In this document: piece after piece, positions 7,186-14,166 of the stretch
Layout: the number at the start of each line of letters is the position of its first letter
How positions within the stretch are numbered: the first letter of the stretch is position 1
Assembly: GCF_000145035.1 (NCBI RefSeq)
Contig: NC_014387.1
Coordinates: forward strand, 1,000,276 to 1,064,275
Reading direction: 5' to 3'
Length of the DNA: 64,000 nt
DNA from: Butyrivibrio proteoclasticus B316
GTDB lineage: Bacteria; Bacillota; Clostridia; Lachnospirales; Lachnospiraceae
The notes under the pieces: generated by a model
What the model was told of the DNA's origin: nothing
The model's input: only the letters and a program-made list of their open reading frames with translations
Database searches by the model: none
Program-made: the position numbers and the translations under genes

Positions 7186-8345
7186 TCAGTTTACAGGTTT
7201 CAGGTTAGGAAAGTGTTTTCGACAGACGAGTTTTCTGGTTTTTCTTCCATATTTTCTGCCGGGCACTAACTGAGATCTGACCTTGAAAGCATCGGATACT
7301 ATCTGATCCAAGTATTCTGTGGGAGAATATTACAAAGTATCTTTGGAATGGCTTTTTTTAATCGCCCGATGATATACGCACTGTTAGCCTGATATCGATT
7401 TTTTCCTGTTGGTGTCATGTGTTCATCTATGTCATCATCGACTTTGTCCTTTATTAAAAAATTCAGATTTGACATAAGTAGATTTATATAGAACTCTTGA
7501 AATACAGCAGTTTTAGTTTTTCCACTGTATTCTTCAAGAAGGAATTTTTCTTTTAGCTCCATGTATTTACTTTCAACTGGCCAGCGCAGAAAGTATAGTT
7601 CACGGAACATATCTATAGTAAGGAATTTATCAAATATATTGGTTCCAAGATACTCACGAGAACCAGCACTTAGAATCACTTCTAAGATTCTGATTGAGAT
7701 ATCTTTAGTACCAATTTTGGGATTTCCTGGTAACACAGCAGTAGAATCACCGTGACAAGAACGGACCATTCTAATCTGGTCACGTAGTCTCATAAGGCAT
7801 AGATATCCATTGGATACACAGTACCTGAACATATCATTTGAATAGTAGCCATGGTCAAAGATGATTACTGACTTTTCATATATATTTAAGGCTTCCAGAG
7901 CTTTCATGTGTTCTCGAGCCGTAGCTCTTTCAGAACCAAGATATTTTTGAAGTGATGCATGGGCTATATAATCATCAAGAACATCATAGACAATAGAAGC
8001 AAGACCAGAAGAAAACTTCCTGTCTTTGTGCGGATAAGTGAACATTTCTCCAAAGAAATCAAAGTTGGATGGAGAATTGGGAACTTCTATCTTTGATCCA
8101 TCAATCGCAAAGATATGATAACCATGCAATAGCTTTCTCTTTTTGATATTGCTATAGAAGATGTCAACTGAGAGGGTGAAGAAATTGTGGAATAAACTTG
8201 GATTAATATATTGACGAGCTTTTGACACGGCCTGCTTTAAGACTTCAGGAAAACATGAAGGAAGCAGGTCATCACGTATTGAAGAAAGATTCTGATACAT
8301 TGAAGCTTTAGTAGTGTAGGACAGATATGTTACCATATGGAGCAT
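7186..8345 (-). pseudogene. IS4-family transposase, frameshifted
   Basis: A DDE transposase remnant. The open part (7299-8345, 348 residues) keeps IDGSKIEV and IFDHGYYS with the two aspartates, and the IS4 YREK signature in YFLRWPVESKYMELK (Y-2-R-3-E-6-K). Near 7305-7325 the frame breaks: the current frame ends at …NTWIR-stop, but the neighbouring frame continues for 43 residues as EYLDQIVSDAFKV… through a very basic tail to a stop at 7186-7188. That is the expected C-terminus of the family. The 5' end is also irregular: an AGGAGG site precedes an ATG (about 26 bases upstream of the open frame) whose frame soon stops, so N-terminal codons are probably lost. The element is likely inactive. Confidence 0.85.
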
Positions 8346-8684
8346 TGATAATTTGCGCTTTCATGTTTTTCCATTGTAACCTCCTAAATTTGCTTGATCT
8401 GGATGTGTTTCGCGACCACGAAATAACATCACTTTTTGATCAAAGGGCTACGAAGCGGTCGCAAATTTTGGGAGCTTTGTCAAGCGTTTTTGAATAAAAA
8501 ATCAAAAATTTTTAACACAATAAAAAAGCTGCAAAGCTAGTAACTATCTAGCTTTACAGATCAAGTTGACCACAGTGGTGACAGGCACTGTGAAGAAGAT
8601 AAAAATAAAAGGAAAAGTGCCGAAGTATTGGTGAAGTCATCAACGTGTAGCTAAAAAAGTAAGCGTAGAAGGGAGATTATTTAT
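8346..8684. other. Right end of the insertion element and SGNH leader
   Basis: No gene is seen in this 339-bp stretch. It starts with the AGGAGG ribosome site for the leftward transposase. It includes a perfect hairpin at 8533-8555 (AAAGCTAG / CTAGCTTT) close to the element's right end. The exact repeat CAGTGGTGACAGGCAC at 8573-8588 follows, and then the leader of the SGNH-hydrolase gene, with a GGGAG ribosome site about ten bases before the ATG at 8685. Possible terminal inverted repeats are GTCAACTTAA near 7029-7038 and TCAAGTTGAC at 8561-8570, but I cannot fix the ends with certainty. Confidence 0.55.
8573..8588 (+). repeat. Right 16-bp direct repeat flanking the IS4-type element
   Basis: Exact second copy of CAGTGGTGACAGGCAC found at 6993-7008. 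Together the two bracket the transposase remnant and its ends. Confidence 0.75.
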
Positions 8685-9854
8685 ATGTATAAGCGTAAAA
8701 AAAATGGGGGTACTGGCTATATACTAATTATTTTATCTGTAATTCTTGCAGTAATTCTTGGCGTTCTTCTATATTATAGCCATATTCAAGAATTGCAGCG
8801 TGAAGCTAGTCTAAAAGTTTTATTGCAACAAGAGCATGAAAAGCAATTGGCACAGAAGGAAGAAGAGCAACGGTTAGAGTTAGCATTGCAGGAGAAAAGA
8901 GAAGGCGATTCTTTTTATCAGAAATTAGCGGATGGGTTTGACGTAAATGTTCTTGTTGTTGGTGATTCAATTGGGGCTGGTGCGGGTGCATCCGATGACA
9001 ATCATAATTTGAGCACTCTTTTGAAAAATAAGATTGCTGAAACATATGGGAGTCTAGTGACTCTTACAAATGTTTCTCTTGGTGGAAATACATCATATGC
9101 TGGATATGCTAGTACCATGGCATTAGATGATAATGTTGATTATAATCTTGTTGTTTTGTGTTATGGACAGAATGATAGTCAAGAGAACTTTAGCTTATAT
9201 TATGAAGCTATGATACGTGCTGTTAAAAATCGCTATCCTAAAGCTTCTCTTTTGGCAATACTTGAATCTAGTCAGAAGGAATATACTTTGAAGATGCAGG
9301 CAATACAAGATATTGCATCTCACTATAGTATTCCTGTGGTGGATACTATTGCACCGTTTCAAAAGAATTATGAATCGCTTACAGCAGATGCAGTACATCC
9401 TAATGATGATGGATATAAAGTATACTGCGAGACAACAATGAAAACAATTAATGATCTTGTTGCTGAGTCATATGGATTTGATCCGATGGATGTTTCTCCT
9501 ATGAATGACAGGGTTATGGATTTTGATGATTTCAAGTTTGTAGGTGCCGACCAGTTTACTCGTGATAATAATACCTTTACGCTTAATACATCTCTTCAAG
9601 GAACTATTCTTGGAATAGATTATGATTTTGTATCCGGAGCAAATAGTTGCAAGATAATAATTGATGGAGAAGAATATGCTGCTCCAGAAGTTAGTTTTGA
9701 TTATGATTCCAGTCAGCGACATATTATGGTTGTAAATAATTGGCTAGATGGTGATGTTGTTGATGTTCAGAATGAAATAAAAGTAGTATTTGCGGATGAT
9801 GAGAATGGTCAGAAGCAAGCTGATGGTTTCAGAGGTCTTGCTATAAGCGGTTGA
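8685..9854 (+). CDS. Membrane-anchored SGNH/GDSL hydrolase
   Basis: A 389-residue protein with a basic N-terminus, one membrane helix (about residues 12-30) and a Q/E/K-rich coiled-coil stalk (about 32-75). An SGNH hydrolase domain follows: block I VVGDSIGAG with nucleophile Ser95, the block II glycine region NVSLGGNTS, block III GQND, and block V DAVHPNDDGY with catalytic His238. A C-terminal beta-rich region (about 255-389) is unassigned. Such enzymes remove or transfer acyl groups, often on extracellular polysaccharides, which fits the nearby polysaccharide cluster. The domain should face outside the cell. A partial, broken copy of its 5' end lies at 6841-6992. It ends in front of a hairpin shared with the convergent Rpn gene. 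Confidence 0.85.
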   Translation: MYKRKKNGGTGYILIILSVILAVILGVLLYYSHIQELQREASLKVLLQQEHEKQLAQKEEEQRLELALQEKREGDSFYQKLADGFDVNVLVVGDSIGAGAGASDDNHNLSTLLKNKIAETYGSLVTLTNVSLGGNTSYAGYASTMALDDNVDYNLVVLCYGQNDSQENFSLYYEAMIRAVKNRYPKASLLAILESSQKEYTLKMQAIQDIASHYSIPVVDTIAPFQKNYESLTADAVHPNDDGYKVYCETTMKTINDLVAESYGFDPMDVSPMNDRVMDFDDFKFVGADQFTRDNNTFTLNTSLQGTILGIDYDFVSGANSCKIIIDGEEYAAPEVSFDYDSSQRHIMVVNNWLDGDVVDVQNEIKVVFADDENGQKQADGFRGLAISG

Positions 9855-9869
9855 TTTTTATAAAAAGAT

Positions 9870-9893
9870 ATCCCTGCTCGAAAGAGCAGGGAT
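9870..9893. terminator. Bidirectional terminator hairpin
   Basis: A perfect 10-bp stem (ATCCCTGCTC / GAGCAGGGAT) closed by GAAA lies between convergent genes. The upstream TTTTTATAAAAAG gives a U-rich tail for the leftward Rpn gene, so it is strongest in that direction. Its core recurs at 10963-10980 on the other side of that gene. Confidence 0.8.
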
Positions 9894-9908
9894 TAGTTAT
9901 ATAGCAAG

Positions 9909-10175
9909 TTATGGATTAATGCCGTTATCCACTAGTAATTTGCGGAGGCGGGCATTCTCGTCTTCAAGGGTAGTATTCTTAGATGTAAGAGTAGCATTCT
10001 CATCTGTAAGAGTAGATACTTCATCAGTAAGCTCTTTTATCGTTTCTTCTCTTTTTGCCTGATAACGGAGAAAATCTTCACGATCTCTGGCAACTTTACG
10101 GATGTTCTCATCTGTGTTCGAAAGGTAGAGAGATTCAATAGCTGAAGACATGCATTCATTATTCTGTGCAACCAT
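9909..10175 (-). CDS. Candidate internal-start short Rpn (RpnS-like) product
   Basis: Within the Rpn gene, Met207 (ATG at 10175-10173) is preceded by GGGAGGA at 10189-10183, a near-ideal Shine-Dalgarno with 7 bases of spacing. Translation from it would give an in-frame 88-residue protein made of the C-terminal helical segment and the whole heptad-repeat coiled coil, without the nuclease core. In characterised Rpn systems an intragenic short protein of this kind binds and blocks the full-length nuclease. The ribosome site is seen directly; the production and role of the short form are inferred. Confidence 0.5.
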   Translation of the reverse strand: MVAQNNECMSSAIESLYLSNTDENIRKVARDREDFLRYQAKREETIKELTDEVSTLTDENATLTSKNTTLEDENARLRKLLVDNGINP

Positions 10176-10793
10176 TTTAAGTTCCTCCCAGGTTTTGGAT
10201 TTGAAGAGGCGGACCCATTCAGTTATGCCATAGTCGATATCATCTTGTGTAGCTAACTCTTCATGGTTTAATTCTATCACAATCAGATTGAGCCTGTCAG
10301 TATAAAGGTAATTGTCCTTGGCATTTCGCAGCTGATAAGTCGCACAGAATTCCGGATGATCTTCGAAAAGTGTAAAGTCAAGGAAACCTATGTGATACAC
10401 TGGAAGAACGTTTTTGTAATCTTCTCCGCGGTTGATGTTATCGTATTCACGGCAGATGTAAGCTACAGACCTGAACTGCCAGTTACCATAGTTGTTCAGT
10501 TGCATCTCGATGTTTATGACAATGCCATTATTCAGAGTTAGGAGGATGTCCATTCTGTATTCCTTGTCAGCGATACTTACGCCGGGCTGAACAACATTTT
10601 TTATCTCTATATCTGTGATCGAATTCGGTTTTAAGTGGAGTACAGATGAGAGAAGGCCTTTTAACGCGAATTTGTTTTGCTGAAAGACGATCCTGAACAT
10701 GTAGTCGTTGGTCATTCCGACCTCGACTGGACCGGTGGCATTCAGATAGTCCTTTCCGGTGAATTCGTTAATAATTTTTGATTCTTGGTGCAT
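9909..10793 (-). CDS. Rpn family recombination-promoting nuclease / PD-(D/E)XK protein
   Basis: A 294-residue member of the Rpn/YhgA-like family, often labelled putative transposase (PF12784/TIGR01784). The N-terminal nuclease domain (about 20-200) shows the PD-(D/E)XK core: YRMDILLT with Asp82, then INIEMQ with Glu96 and Gln98. It also has the family's NDYMFRIVF start and GITEWVRLFKSKTWEEL segment. The C-terminus (about 245-290) is a coiled coil of tandem heptads (LTDENAT, LTSKNTT, LEDENAR) encoded by near-perfect 21-bp units. Known Rpn proteins are DNA nucleases tied to RecA-independent recombination and anti-phage defence, and some are held in check by a short product from an internal start. 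A strong internal start is present here (separate entry). It is bracketed by copies of one hairpin. Confidence 0.88.
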   Translation of the reverse strand: MHQESKIINEFTGKDYLNATGPVEVGMTNDYMFRIVFQQNKFALKGLLSSVLHLKPNSITDIEIKNVVQPGVSIADKEYRMDILLTLNNGIVINIEMQLNNYGNWQFRSVAYICREYDNINRGEDYKNVLPVYHIGFLDFTLFEDHPEFCATYQLRNAKDNYLYTDRLNLIVIELNHEELATQDDIDYGITEWVRLFKSKTWEELKMVAQNNECMSSAIESLYLSNTDENIRKVARDREDFLRYQAKREETIKELTDEVSTLTDENATLTSKNTTLEDENARLRKLLVDNGINP

Positions 10794-11129
10794 TTGTAAA
10801 TCCTTTCTGTTTGTTACGATCTTTGGAAAATGGCTCAGAGGCCGGAAATAAAGAATGTAACTGAAATTTAATGATGCTCAGAAATGAGCTATAGACTATG
10901 TTAACCGGAAATTATTAAGATTTACCGTCGAAATTTCTTTAGATTTTATGTAGATAGAAAATCCTGCTCGAAAGAGCAGGTATTAGTTCTTGCATTTAAA
11001 ATTCACATATGCTATTCTAACCAAGCTGTGAAAATCTTTCACAGTTCTTTTCCAATCTGGAGAGGCTGAGCAGTTCTTGCTGATGCCAATTTCATTGATG
11101 GGAGAATTAGGATTTTTTGAAGGAGGCAT
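10794..11129. other. Intergenic region with two hairpins
   Basis: This 336-bp gap separates divergent Rpn-like genes. It holds CCTGCTC-GAAA-GAGCAGG at 10963-10980, followed by TATTAGTT. This is a second copy of the hairpin at 9872-9891, with matching flank. A further perfect stem, CTGTGAAA / TTTCACAG, lies at 11026-11044 with a T-rich tail (TTCTTTTCC), so it could stop transcription entering the rightward gene. No reading frame of note is present. Promoters for both genes should lie here, but I could not pick clear -35/-10 pairs. Confidence 0.6.
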
Positions 11130-11135
11130 ATGTAT

Positions 11136-12092
11136 ATGCAAGAAGAAAACAAAGACAAAAAGGCATCACCACTTTATTCTGAGTTCGCTTATGATGATGC
11201 TTACAGAACTATGGAAACGGAATGCGATGATATTATAATTCCATTTGTGAACTATTTTTACAATGAGAATTATGATAACACTGCCAAAATCACCAGGCTG
11301 AGGAATGAACATTATATCGAACATGCTGATCAGTCTGATGAGAAGAGGATCACTGATTCTCATTTCAAGATCACACAGAATGATGTCAGTAAGACTTATC
11401 ATTTTGAGTGTGAGAGCAAGCCTTATGATAATTCGATCCTTGTAAGGATGTTTGAATATGATTCTCAGACTGCTCTGGATGAGAGTAAGAGTGAAGGAAA
11501 TATTCTGAGAGTGAGATTTCCTTATGCAGGGTTGCTTTTACTGAGAAAGTCACTGTCATCACCTGATAGAGCAGAAGTCATAATCGAGACTCCTAAGGGT
11601 GAAGTAAGCTATGACATTAAAATTATTAAGATTTCTGACTTTTCGATTGACAGTATCTTTGAGAACCATTTGTATCTTATGATTCCATTTTATATTTTCA
11701 ATTATGAAAGTGAATTTAAGTCAATTAATGAAGATGCAGAGAGAACAGAAGACCTTGCTGATGTATTCAGAAACATAATGGATAGACTTGATGAGGAGCT
11801 TGAGAAAGGCAACTTGTCAGCGTTATCCCACAATGTTATCATTAGACTAACACATAAAGTTGTCTACAAGCTTACGATGAAGCATGACAAAGTGCAGGAT
11901 AAGGTAGGTGGTATTATGGGTGGCAAGGTGCTGGATTTACCTGACATAAAAGTTTTTCATGAGGGCAAGGCTGAGGGACTTAAGGAAGGCGAAGCTGAAC
12001 GTAAGAAATTAGCTGATAAAAATACGGAATTAGAAGATGAGATAGCATCTCTAAAGGCTGAGCTGGAAAAGCTTAAGAAACAGATGAAGTAA
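11136..12092 (+). CDS. PD-(D/E)XK nuclease-like protein with coiled-coil tail
   Basis: A protein of 318 residues (320 if the ATG at 11130 is used). The AGGAGG at 11121-11126 is only 3 bases from the 11130 ATG but 9 from the ATG at 11136, so I prefer the latter. Counting from 11130, residues 76-97 fit a PD-(D/E)XK core: an Asp in ITDSHFKI, then HFECESK with Glu and Lys. It resembles the Rpn-type proteins abundant in Lachnospiraceae but is clearly diverged from the neighbour at 9909. The last 50 residues are a Lys/Glu coiled coil preceded by the GKAEGLKEGEAE repeat typical of such tails. Function is unproven; nuclease or toxin-like activity is inferred. A strong terminator follows. Confidence 0.7.
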   Translation: MQEENKDKKASPLYSEFAYDDAYRTMETECDDIIIPFVNYFYNENYDNTAKITRLRNEHYIEHADQSDEKRITDSHFKITQNDVSKTYHFECESKPYDNSILVRMFEYDSQTALDESKSEGNILRVRFPYAGLLLLRKSLSSPDRAEVIIETPKGEVSYDIKIIKISDFSIDSIFENHLYLMIPFYIFNYESEFKSINEDAERTEDLADVFRNIMDRLDEELEKGNLSALSHNVIIRLTHKVVYKLTMKHDKVQDKVGGIMGGKVLDLPDIKVFHEGKAEGLKEGEAERKKLADKNTELEDEIASLKAELEKLKKQMK

Positions 12093-12126
12093 TAACTGGA
12101 TAAATAATATATTTGATTTAAGAATT

Positions 12127-12171
12127 AACTCCTAATACAGAGGATGAATGCTTTTGTATTAGGAGTTTTTG
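12127..12171 (+). terminator. Rho-independent terminator
   Basis: A perfect 13-bp inverted repeat (AACTCCTAATACA / TGTATTAGGAGTT) with a 15-base loop and a run of five T's. It ends the Rpn-like gene and isolates glmS. Confidence 0.88.
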
Positions 12172-12297
12172 TTATAAAAACTGATCGAATGGGTAGATAA
12201 TAAGCAGCCACAAAAAAGAATTATTGATAATATTCCGCGAATGATTTATTATTTTAAGTCAGTACAATATGGATTTATATAGAGAGGAAATCATACT

Positions 12298-14166
12298 ATG
12301 TGCGGAATAGTTGGATATATTGGTAAACGTCAGGCGGCTCCAATATTGATCGATGGGCTCAAGAAGCTTGAATACAGAGGATATGACTCAGCAGGTATTG
12401 CTGTAAGAGATGGAAGCGATAATGCTGAGGTTGTTAAGGCTGTCGGAAGGCTCAAGAATCTTGAGGAGAAGACTGATGATGGCGCAAGTGTTCATGGATG
12501 CTGCGGTATCGGCCATACAAGATGGGCGACTCATGGTGGACCTTCTCAGACAAATGCACATCCTCATGTATCAGGTAACTGTACCGGATCTGCATCTGGA
12601 ACTGTTTTATCTGAGGTTGTTGGTGTACATAACGGTATTATCGAGAACTATCAGGAGTTAAAAGAAAAGCTCATTAAGAATGGCTACGAATTCTACAGTG
12701 ATACAGACACTGAAGTTGCTATCAAGCTAATAGATTATTACTACAAGAAGTACAAGGTTGGACCTATTGATGCGCTTGCCAAGACTATGGTGAGAGTTCG
12801 CGGATCATATGCGCTGGAAGTAATGTTTGCCGATTATCCGGATGAGATATATGTGGCAAGGAAAGACAGCCCGATGATCATCGGTGTTAACGATGGAGAG
12901 ACATACGTAGCATCTGATGTTCCGGCTATATTAAATCATACCAAGAATGTATATTACATTGGTAATAATGAGATGGGAAGGCTCCTTCCCGGTAAGGCTG
13001 AGTTCTATGATCTTAATGGCGACATAATAGAAAAAGAGCTGGTGGAGATCAAGTTCTCTGCTGAATCAGCTGAAAGAGGCGGCTTTGAGCATTTCATGAT
13101 GAAAGAAATTCATGAGCAGCCAGCTGCTATTCGTAACACGATAGGATCTCTTGTAACTAATGGAAGACTTGACCTTGCCAAGATTGGTATAGAAGAGGAA
13201 GTGATCAGCTCTTTTACCGGAATAACAATTGTTGCCTGTGGAAGTGCATGGCATGTAGGAATGGCAGCTCAGTACGTTATTGAAGATATTGCCAGAGTTC
13301 CGGTTCGTGTAGAGCTTGCTTCAGAATTCAGATACAGAAATCCTTTGCTTGATCCTAATAATCTTGTAATAGTTATCTCCCAGTCAGGAGAAACTGCAGA
13401 TACTCTTGCGGCTCTTCGTGAAGCAAAGAGCAGAGGAAACAAGACACTGGCTATAGTTAATGTAGTTGGATCATCAATTGCAAGAGAAGCAGATTATGTA
13501 ATTTATACAGTGGCAGGACCTGAAATATCAGTAGCTACGACCAAGGCTTACAGTTGTCAGCTTGTAGTTTCATTCCTTCTTGCAATGGAGTTTGCTCTTG
13601 TAAGAGGCCAGATTGATAAAGAGACTTATGATTCTTATCTTTCTGAAGTATCAAGAATTCCTGATTGCATTCAGAAGATTCTTGATGACAAGGAGAGGAT
13701 CCAGTGGTTTGCAGCCAAGATTGCAAACTCTAAGGATGTCTTTTTCATTGGAAGAGGAATCGATTATGCTATAGGTCTTGAGGGAAGCCTCAAGCTCAAG
13801 GAGATTTCATATATTCACTCAGAGGCATATGCGGCCGGTGAGCTTAAGCACGGAACAATCAGTCTTATTGAGGACGGAACTCTTGTTATCGGTGTCCTCT
13901 GTCAGGATGGTCTTTATGAGAAGACTGTTTCAAATATGGTTGAGTGCAAATCACGTGGCGCTTACCTGATGGCACTTGCTCCTTATGGAAAATATGATGT
14001 TGAGGATATAGCTGATTTTGTAACTTATGTACCTAAGATGGATCCACACTTTATAGGATCACTTGCTGTAGTTCCGCTTCAGCTTCTGGGCTATTATGTT
14101 TCAGTTGCAAGGGGACTTGATGTTGATAAGCCAAGAAATCTGGCTAAGAGTGTAACTGTAGAATAA
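12298..14166 (+). CDS. glmS: Glutamine-fructose-6-phosphate aminotransferase (isomerizing)
   Basis: A 622-residue enzyme that makes glucosamine-6-phosphate from fructose-6-phosphate and glutamine, the entry to UDP-GlcNAc for wall and surface polymers. The N-terminal class II glutaminase starts MCGIVGYIG with nucleophile Cys2 after Met removal. GHTRWATHG and the HNGIIENY block follow. The C-terminal half has two SIS domains (VACGSAWHVGMAAQ, VISQSGETADT, AGELKHGTISLIE) and ends DKPRNLAKSVTVE, the canonical tail. Length is normal. AGAGAGGAAATC gives the ribosome site. The 5' region is short and AT-rich and shows no glmS ribozyme, so another control is used. A terminator follows at 14209. Confidence 0.97.
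   Translation: MCGIVGYIGKRQAAPILIDGLKKLEYRGYDSAGIAVRDGSDNAEVVKAVGRLKNLEEKTDDGASVHGCCGIGHTRWATHGGPSQTNAHPHVSGNCTGSASGTVLSEVVGVHNGIIENYQELKEKLIKNGYEFYSDTDTEVAIKLIDYYYKKYKVGPIDALAKTMVRVRGSYALEVMFADYPDEIYVARKDSPMIIGVNDGETYVASDVPAILNHTKNVYYIGNNEMGRLLPGKAEFYDLNGDIIEKELVEIKFSAESAERGGFEHFMMKEIHEQPAAIRNTIGSLVTNGRLDLAKIGIEEEVISSFTGITIVACGSAWHVGMAAQYVIEDIARVPVRVELASEFRYRNPLLDPNNLVIVISQSGETADTLAALREAKSRGNKTLAIVNVVGSSIAREADYVIYTVAGPEISVATTKAYSCQLVVSFLLAMEFALVRGQIDKETYDSYLSEVSRIPDCIQKILDDKERIQWFAAKIANSKDVFFIGRGIDYAIGLEGSLKLKEISYIHSEAYAAGELKHGTISLIEDGTLVIGVLCQDGLYEKTVSNMVECKSRGAYLMALAPYGKYDVEDIADFVTYVPKMDPHFIGSLAVVPLQLLGYYVSVARGLDVDKPRNLAKSVTVE

Follow-up and report, generated by a model that had tools for sequence, protein, structure and literature searches.

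Positions 9,909 to 10,793 of a 64,000-nucleotide stretch of Butyrivibrio proteoclasticus B316 DNA (the window) probably form an Rpn-type gene-within-gene toxin-antitoxin unit, in which a long nuclease gene, rpnL, would carry within its own codons the promoter, ribosome site and start of a short gene, rpnS. The demonstration that Rpn genes act as toxin-antitoxin units comes mainly from Escherichia coli, where Zhong et al. (2023, PMC10327210) describe an internal promoter, an internal start, an inhibiting S product and free S genes. The initial annotation had proposed a toxin and antitoxin in one locus in a Lachnospiraceae host; the host does belong to this family (genus Butyrivibrio), and the proposal, whose functional side is presumptive, gains support from conserved signals, a promoter under constraint, and free-standing copies of S whose pN/pS is low. 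The sequences further point, beyond that first reading, to promoter constraint at the codon level, free S genes, stepwise changes in heptad number and a similarly built neighbor. We also lean, by a narrower measure of belief, towards a wider reading in which the locus comprises two divergent gene-within-gene nuclease/antitoxin units, one a PF12784 Rpn unit with heptad-coded pairing and the other from an uncatalogued family with its own promoter, start and RpnS-like repeats, with antitoxin promoters frozen in toxin codons and both units shedding free antitoxin genes genus-wide.

The long gene, rpnL (9909..10793, minus strand), follows a Shine-Dalgarno-like AAAGGA (10801..10806, minus strand) identified from upstream sequence and pairing energy, and encodes a predicted PD-(D/E)XK nuclease of 294 amino acids with a C-terminal coiled coil. 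In profile searches it matches PF12784 with 117.9 bits (cut-off 27.4) and passes the Rpn-family test TIGR01784 with 78.4 bits (cut-off 52.1), a model against which E. coli RpnA scores 160.9 bits. The active-site pattern of RpnA is D...ExQ, of PD-(D/E)XK type. All 18 RpnA-type sequences aligned have D63, E82 and Q84, and D82, E96 and Q98 of the window protein are likewise invariant in a 46-sequence alignment; the window protein fits the D...ExQ pattern, and its catalysis is a prediction. The predicted structure of the full-length protein has helices at residues 202-209, 213-227 and 229-289. As the initial annotation anticipated, the Pfam and NCBIfam names for the family are (putative) transposase.

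Within this gene, an ATG at codon 207 would start rpnS (9909..10175, minus strand), an 88-amino-acid product, at a distance of seven nucleotides from an internal Shine-Dalgarno sequence, GGGAGGA, in codons 202-204 (10183..10189, minus strand). The sequence confirms this arrangement as first described, and the predicted structure agrees that the short product would retain the C-terminal helices and coiled coil. It would lack D82, E96 and Q98. We compared the site with 3133 internal in-frame ATGs from 375 open reading frames, sampled from the window and from twenty stretches of its genome, each 20 kb long. Among these, the exact GGGAGGA-N7-ATG arrangement is unique to the window gene, and equal or stronger pairing energy is found at eight of the 3133 ATGs, in eight of the 375 genes, the window gene included. 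Since about 2% of genes have such a strong internal site, a single site is uncommon and not decisive alone, and it is because of its conservation across homologues that we judge the internal start to be real.

Homologues were gathered by a search of 79 genomes of the genus, 59 of them matching, and by a scan of named genome contigs, in which a relative was encoded on 97 stretches, 80 of them retained; the latter relied on degenerate peptide patterns, including KTWEELKM, which bias toward the protein motif and not toward any codon. The 94 distinct full-length genes were reduced to 78 by dropping rows of at least 85% nucleotide identity. Alignment of homologues was one comparison by which the internal start could have been refuted, and it shows the GGGAGG-ATG arrangement to be conserved: 76 of the 78 have TGGGAGG, and 75 have ATG207. 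The codon for Glu203 is GAG in 77 of 78; the codon after it varies, with 54 GAA and 19 GAG, and Glu usage over all these homologous genes is 772 GAG versus 1380 GAA. The sole row with GAA at 203, the second gene of L014, is also without Met207, and in two others (L067 and L070) the ATG is shifted one codon later. Across the 78-gene subfamily the C-terminal internal Shine-Dalgarno beats codon shuffles (p 1.7e-14; N-terminal control, p 0.88). Shuffles of single genes are weak (4/78 at p≤0.05 in one run, 13/78 at p≤0.1 in another), so the weight of this result lies in the test that pairs each gene with its shuffles across the whole set.

Constraint on its codons indicates that the gene also holds an internal promoter for rpnS, overlooked in the first reading, at 10271..10300 (minus strand). 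It consists of CTGACA (10300-10295), an 18-nucleotide spacer and TAGAAT (10276-10271), with an extended TG at 10279-10278, and it matches the sigma-70-type consensus at 10 of 12 positions. A consensus scan of the region finds three promoters against a shuffle mean of 3.8, no excess, and the consensus match alone therefore means little. Among the 78 homologues, TGnTAnnnT is present in 73 and TGACA in 61, and the bases that stay constant are the ones on which an extended -10 chiefly depends. We scanned 270 columns of the same alignment for third-base conservation beyond codon usage, and the nine most constrained are 172, 173, 178, 175, 165, 166, 174, 209 and 203; six of these (172, 173, 175, 165, 166 and 174) lie in the promoter and column 203 is in the Shine-Dalgarno sequence. 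The ranking is similar in 30 maximally diverse rows of less than 63% nucleotide identity (top six 172, 173, 175, 165, 178, 203), in 23 rows from the genus search (top five 172, 173, 165, 178, 175, with 203 ninth) and in the 46 rows L040 to L111 (top four 173, 172, 178, 165, with 203 tenth); nine of the 78 rows are in neither of the latter two subsets. The z-scores ignore shared ancestry and are accordingly taken as ranks within one tree. We note that codons 178 (10262), about 11 nucleotides after the -10, and 209 (10169) show third-base constraint as strong as that of the promoter columns.

The short gene also occurs by itself. Many C-terminal-only matches are present in the genus among the matches listed by the genus search, and the collected loci contain 32 C-terminal-only open reading frames, of which 29 span the start column; ATG is at that column in all 29 and GGGAGGA in 26. 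Twelve of the 29 were set aside: seven with N-terminal homology overlapping or directly upstream, two that run off their contigs (L117 at 3511 and L126), two rearranged at the start and without GGGAGGA (L129 and L122 at 5680), and L133, a frame-broken long gene and not a stand-alone S. The 17 clean stand-alone S genes comprise 15 from Butyrivibrio and two from other Lachnospiraceae/Eubacteriales bins (L043 and L102), and their Shine-Dalgarno sequence is GGGAGGA in all except L043, which has AGGAGGA. In six of the 17 the ATG is the sole start codon of the reading frame up to that point, an additional upstream start with a Shine-Dalgarno-like site is found in L119, and a -10 is in register in 12. 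The median pN/pS against the nearest relative is 0.23 over 18 rows that include L133 and 0.25 without it, for rows that had to carry GGAGGA, with one infinite ratio (pS of 0, L118 and L128 being almost copies of each other), several reciprocal pairs, and comparisons against L genes that share the constraint of L itself. At G000:C1:1388190-1388447 (locus L114, G000:C1:1387000-1389600) the window genome also carries an S-like remnant, decayed and interrupted by two stops. Two loci, L111:2994-5583 and L029 (minus strand), contain reading frames of 863 and at least 724 amino acids that are only partly rpn protein and are possibly fusions or insertions. Subfamily members also lie on contigs labelled as Alphaproteobacteria (L096), Muribaculaceae (L089) and Bacillus (L053) MAGs, through either transfer or mis-binning.

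Hairpins bound the locus on both sides. The one following the rpn unit (9870..9893, minus strand) has counterparts of the same kind in INlla14, 22 nucleotides after the L gene and also after both S genes, and because of this placement after L and both S genes we read the hairpins as terminators. Repeat comparison shows a second copy upstream of rpnL (10963..10980), probably left behind by an upstream unit that was lost, and with up to two mismatches allowed the hairpin is found only these two times in the genome. Each copy lies in one of two 44-nucleotide direct repeats that are 82% alike (9855-9898 and 10945-10988). The idea that these repeats are cassette or recombination sites was dropped, given that the hairpin follows the L and both S genes of INlla14. 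Nearby are an IS transposase of the DDE type (PF01609; 7299-8345, minus strand) and a GDSL-type enzyme (PF13472; 8685-9854, plus strand), both identified by profile match; no evident defence genes adjoin the rpn locus, and its surroundings are not an evident defence island.

Several other explanations of these observations were weighed. The family names would make the gene a transposase and its C-terminal copies mobile-element debris, as might the many copies and fragments in the genus, some of them with stops. We give this the least credence of all, since a search of 8300-12400 for terminal inverted repeats around the rpn gene found two inverted pairs, neither of them flanking it, the direct repeats are read as terminators, and the clean S copies retain their start and Shine-Dalgarno sequence with low pN/pS. 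PMC10327210 likewise reports the family as lacking signs of autonomous transposition and, for other rpn genes compared between genomes with and without them, neither defined ends nor target duplication. Scarcely more credible is that the conserved DNA reflects protein constraint on WEELKM and V-x-x-L together with codon bias, with no internal product. In 46 protein sequences W202 and E203 never vary and M207 hardly does, and the per-gene codon shuffles are weak, both of which this explanation would accommodate; it does not account for a fixed synonymous site, GAG at 203 despite the general preference for GAA and the variable adjoining Glu, or for constraint that sits on TGnTAnnnT. Nor does it fit L121, in which an intact -10 is directly followed by a stop codon, or L133, in which the long frame is broken and the promoter, Shine-Dalgarno sequence and S frame are retained.

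The remaining alternative accepts the internal promoter and start as the source of an S protein and assigns this protein the role of a structural or activating subunit of an L complex, not that of an inhibitor. It predicts the same conserved sequence signals, and there are precedents: Cas10d/Cas11d are cited as complementary products in PMC10327210, and the small subunits that some CRISPR Cascades obtain from internal starts may be compared. We nevertheless consider it unlikely, although less so than the other two, because stand-alone S genes, most of which have no L beside them, better fit an inhibitor or immunity role, and because the Rpn S proteins studied so far are inhibitors according to the same paper.

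The toxin-antitoxin unit we thus favor takes its functional propositions by analogy from PMC10327210: the cell would make S, L would be an active and toxic nuclease, S would inhibit it, and the unit would defend against phage. Translation from the upstream start would yield L, a PD-(D/E)XK DNA nuclease with a C-terminal arm ending in a coiled coil, and the promoter in codons 165-175 together with the ribosome site at codons 202-204 would yield S independently, with the same arm and without the nuclease. The matching coiled coils would bring S and L together, with S holding L inactive, and loss or displacement of S, perhaps during phage infection, would leave L free to cut DNA. Gain or loss of heptads would alter both partners together and could create new pairing specificities.

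The coiled coil does vary in heptad number. Repeat analysis and length steps in relatives identify an array of 21-nucleotide (heptad) repeats at 9966..10031 (minus strand), and among nine full-length genes of at least 63% identity the S part is 67, 74, 81 or 88 amino acids long in six and 75, 97 and 104 in three. RGIG2449 (L033) is collinear with window positions 8627-13000 at 87-95% identity, and its rpn gene is without 63 nucleotides, equal to three heptads, at 9963-10020. In INlla14, the L gene has an S part of 81 amino acids and the free S genes encode 88 and 67; as these lengths differ from that of L, they may not be partners. The variation of heptad number in near-identical genes resembles that of four-residue repeats in known RpnS proteins, and in E. 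coli the addition of one such repeat alters which S blocks which L (PMC10327210). By analogy we infer that heptad number may set L-S pairing here as repeat number does there, and the heptad steps suggest a simple pairing code for toxin and antitoxin.

The likeness to the E. coli systems extends to several features and has clear bounds. Both the window gene and E. coli RpnA-RpnE/RpnP2 are above the TIGR01784 cut-off, both have an in-frame internal start with a Shine-Dalgarno sequence, an internal promoter and free S genes, and in both the number of C-terminal repeats varies. However, the window gene belongs to PF12784 and E. coli Rpn to PF04754, and in sequence comparison the window protein does not align significantly with E. 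coli RpnA. The window S would be 88 amino acids long with a heptad coiled coil, whereas RpnAS has about 49 with four-residue repeats. Such repeats are nearly absent from the window subfamily (at least two successive xxxG units in 4 of 78), where heptads vary instead; PMC10327210 describes four-residue repeats as something a helix can have, and they are thus not strictly defining for Rpn L/S. Known RpnS is a three-helix bundle dimer (PDB 7TH0), and this entry is not among the matches listed for the window protein, in a structure comparison that used the full-length model only. A Gram-positive precedent is the C. difficile Rpn, which gave RpnS in E. coli and lost it on mutation of the ribosome binding site and internal start (PMC10327210). 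Our literature search, largely without subscription journals, found no publication on the window PF12784 subfamily.

PF12784 matches occur in 81 of 398 genomes of the phylum. In 30 other, distant PF12784 genes the best C-terminal internal start has a median of -14.3 kcal/mol against a shuffle mean of -9.6 (p 8.2e-08), with an N-terminal control of p 0.81, and a synonymous scan of the 30 shows no clustered peak (best z 4.6) and no sign of an internal promoter at that place. The wider family had been considered as a negative control, and this was dropped on account of these strong C-terminal starts, which appear with a longer anti-Shine-Dalgarno probe; the probe was switched between tests, the short one showing little and the longer one a strong effect with the N-terminal control still negative. 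On this comparison only the window subfamily carries the promoter signal, and the internal start extends beyond it. Codon constraint indicates that selection maintains the inner promoter and ribosome site here, in a Pfam family other than that of E. coli Rpn, among anaerobic Bacillota. Third-base constraint and the Shine-Dalgarno-versus-shuffle test with an N-terminal control need nothing but genomes and could find other genes-within-genes.

The same test led directly to the divergent neighbor of rpnL (11130..12092, plus strand), for whose 320-amino-acid protein homologue comparison suggests a gene-within-gene layout. Its relatives (120 listed of 251 protein relatives) are hypothetical proteins wherever the source gives a name, profile searches place the protein in no family above a curated cut-off, and against TIGR01784 the neighbor itself is unmatched and one of 52 family members reaches an E of 0.0036. 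The predicted structure (pLDDT 81.3) combines an alpha/beta core with a helical arm, and D76, E93 and C94 are invariant in the family alignment. A putative short product of 58 amino acids (11916..12092, plus strand) would start at codon 263, which is ATG in 48, GTG in two and TTT in one of 51 non-redundant homologues, after an internal Shine-Dalgarno sequence, AGGTGGT (11906..11912, plus strand), also found by homologue comparison. Median pairing at codon 263 is about -14 kcal/mol, matched by none of 418 other in-frame ATGs, and the C-terminal Shine-Dalgarno pairs more strongly than codon-shuffled versions do (p 4.4e-10, against 0.98 for the N-terminal control). A candidate internal promoter, TTGTCA-17-TATCAT (11814..11842, plus strand), matches the consensus at 10 of 12 positions; TTGTC(A/T)-17-TATCAT is present in all 12 close homologues and a looser form in only 2 of 39 far ones, and the most codon-constrained columns of the close group are 236, 260, 237, 229, 241 and 240. 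The short product has four-residue repeats like those of RpnS, with at least two successive xxxG units after the inner Met in 45 of 51 homologues; in RpnS, such repeats start 8-20 residues in, according to PMC10327210. We think that the neighbor may work like an Rpn unit, though outside TIGR01784. Copies of its C-terminal part alone likewise occur in the genus (23 open reading frames in the collected loci), and a decayed C-terminal remnant of its family lies elsewhere in the same genome (L233, G000:C1:198500-200200).
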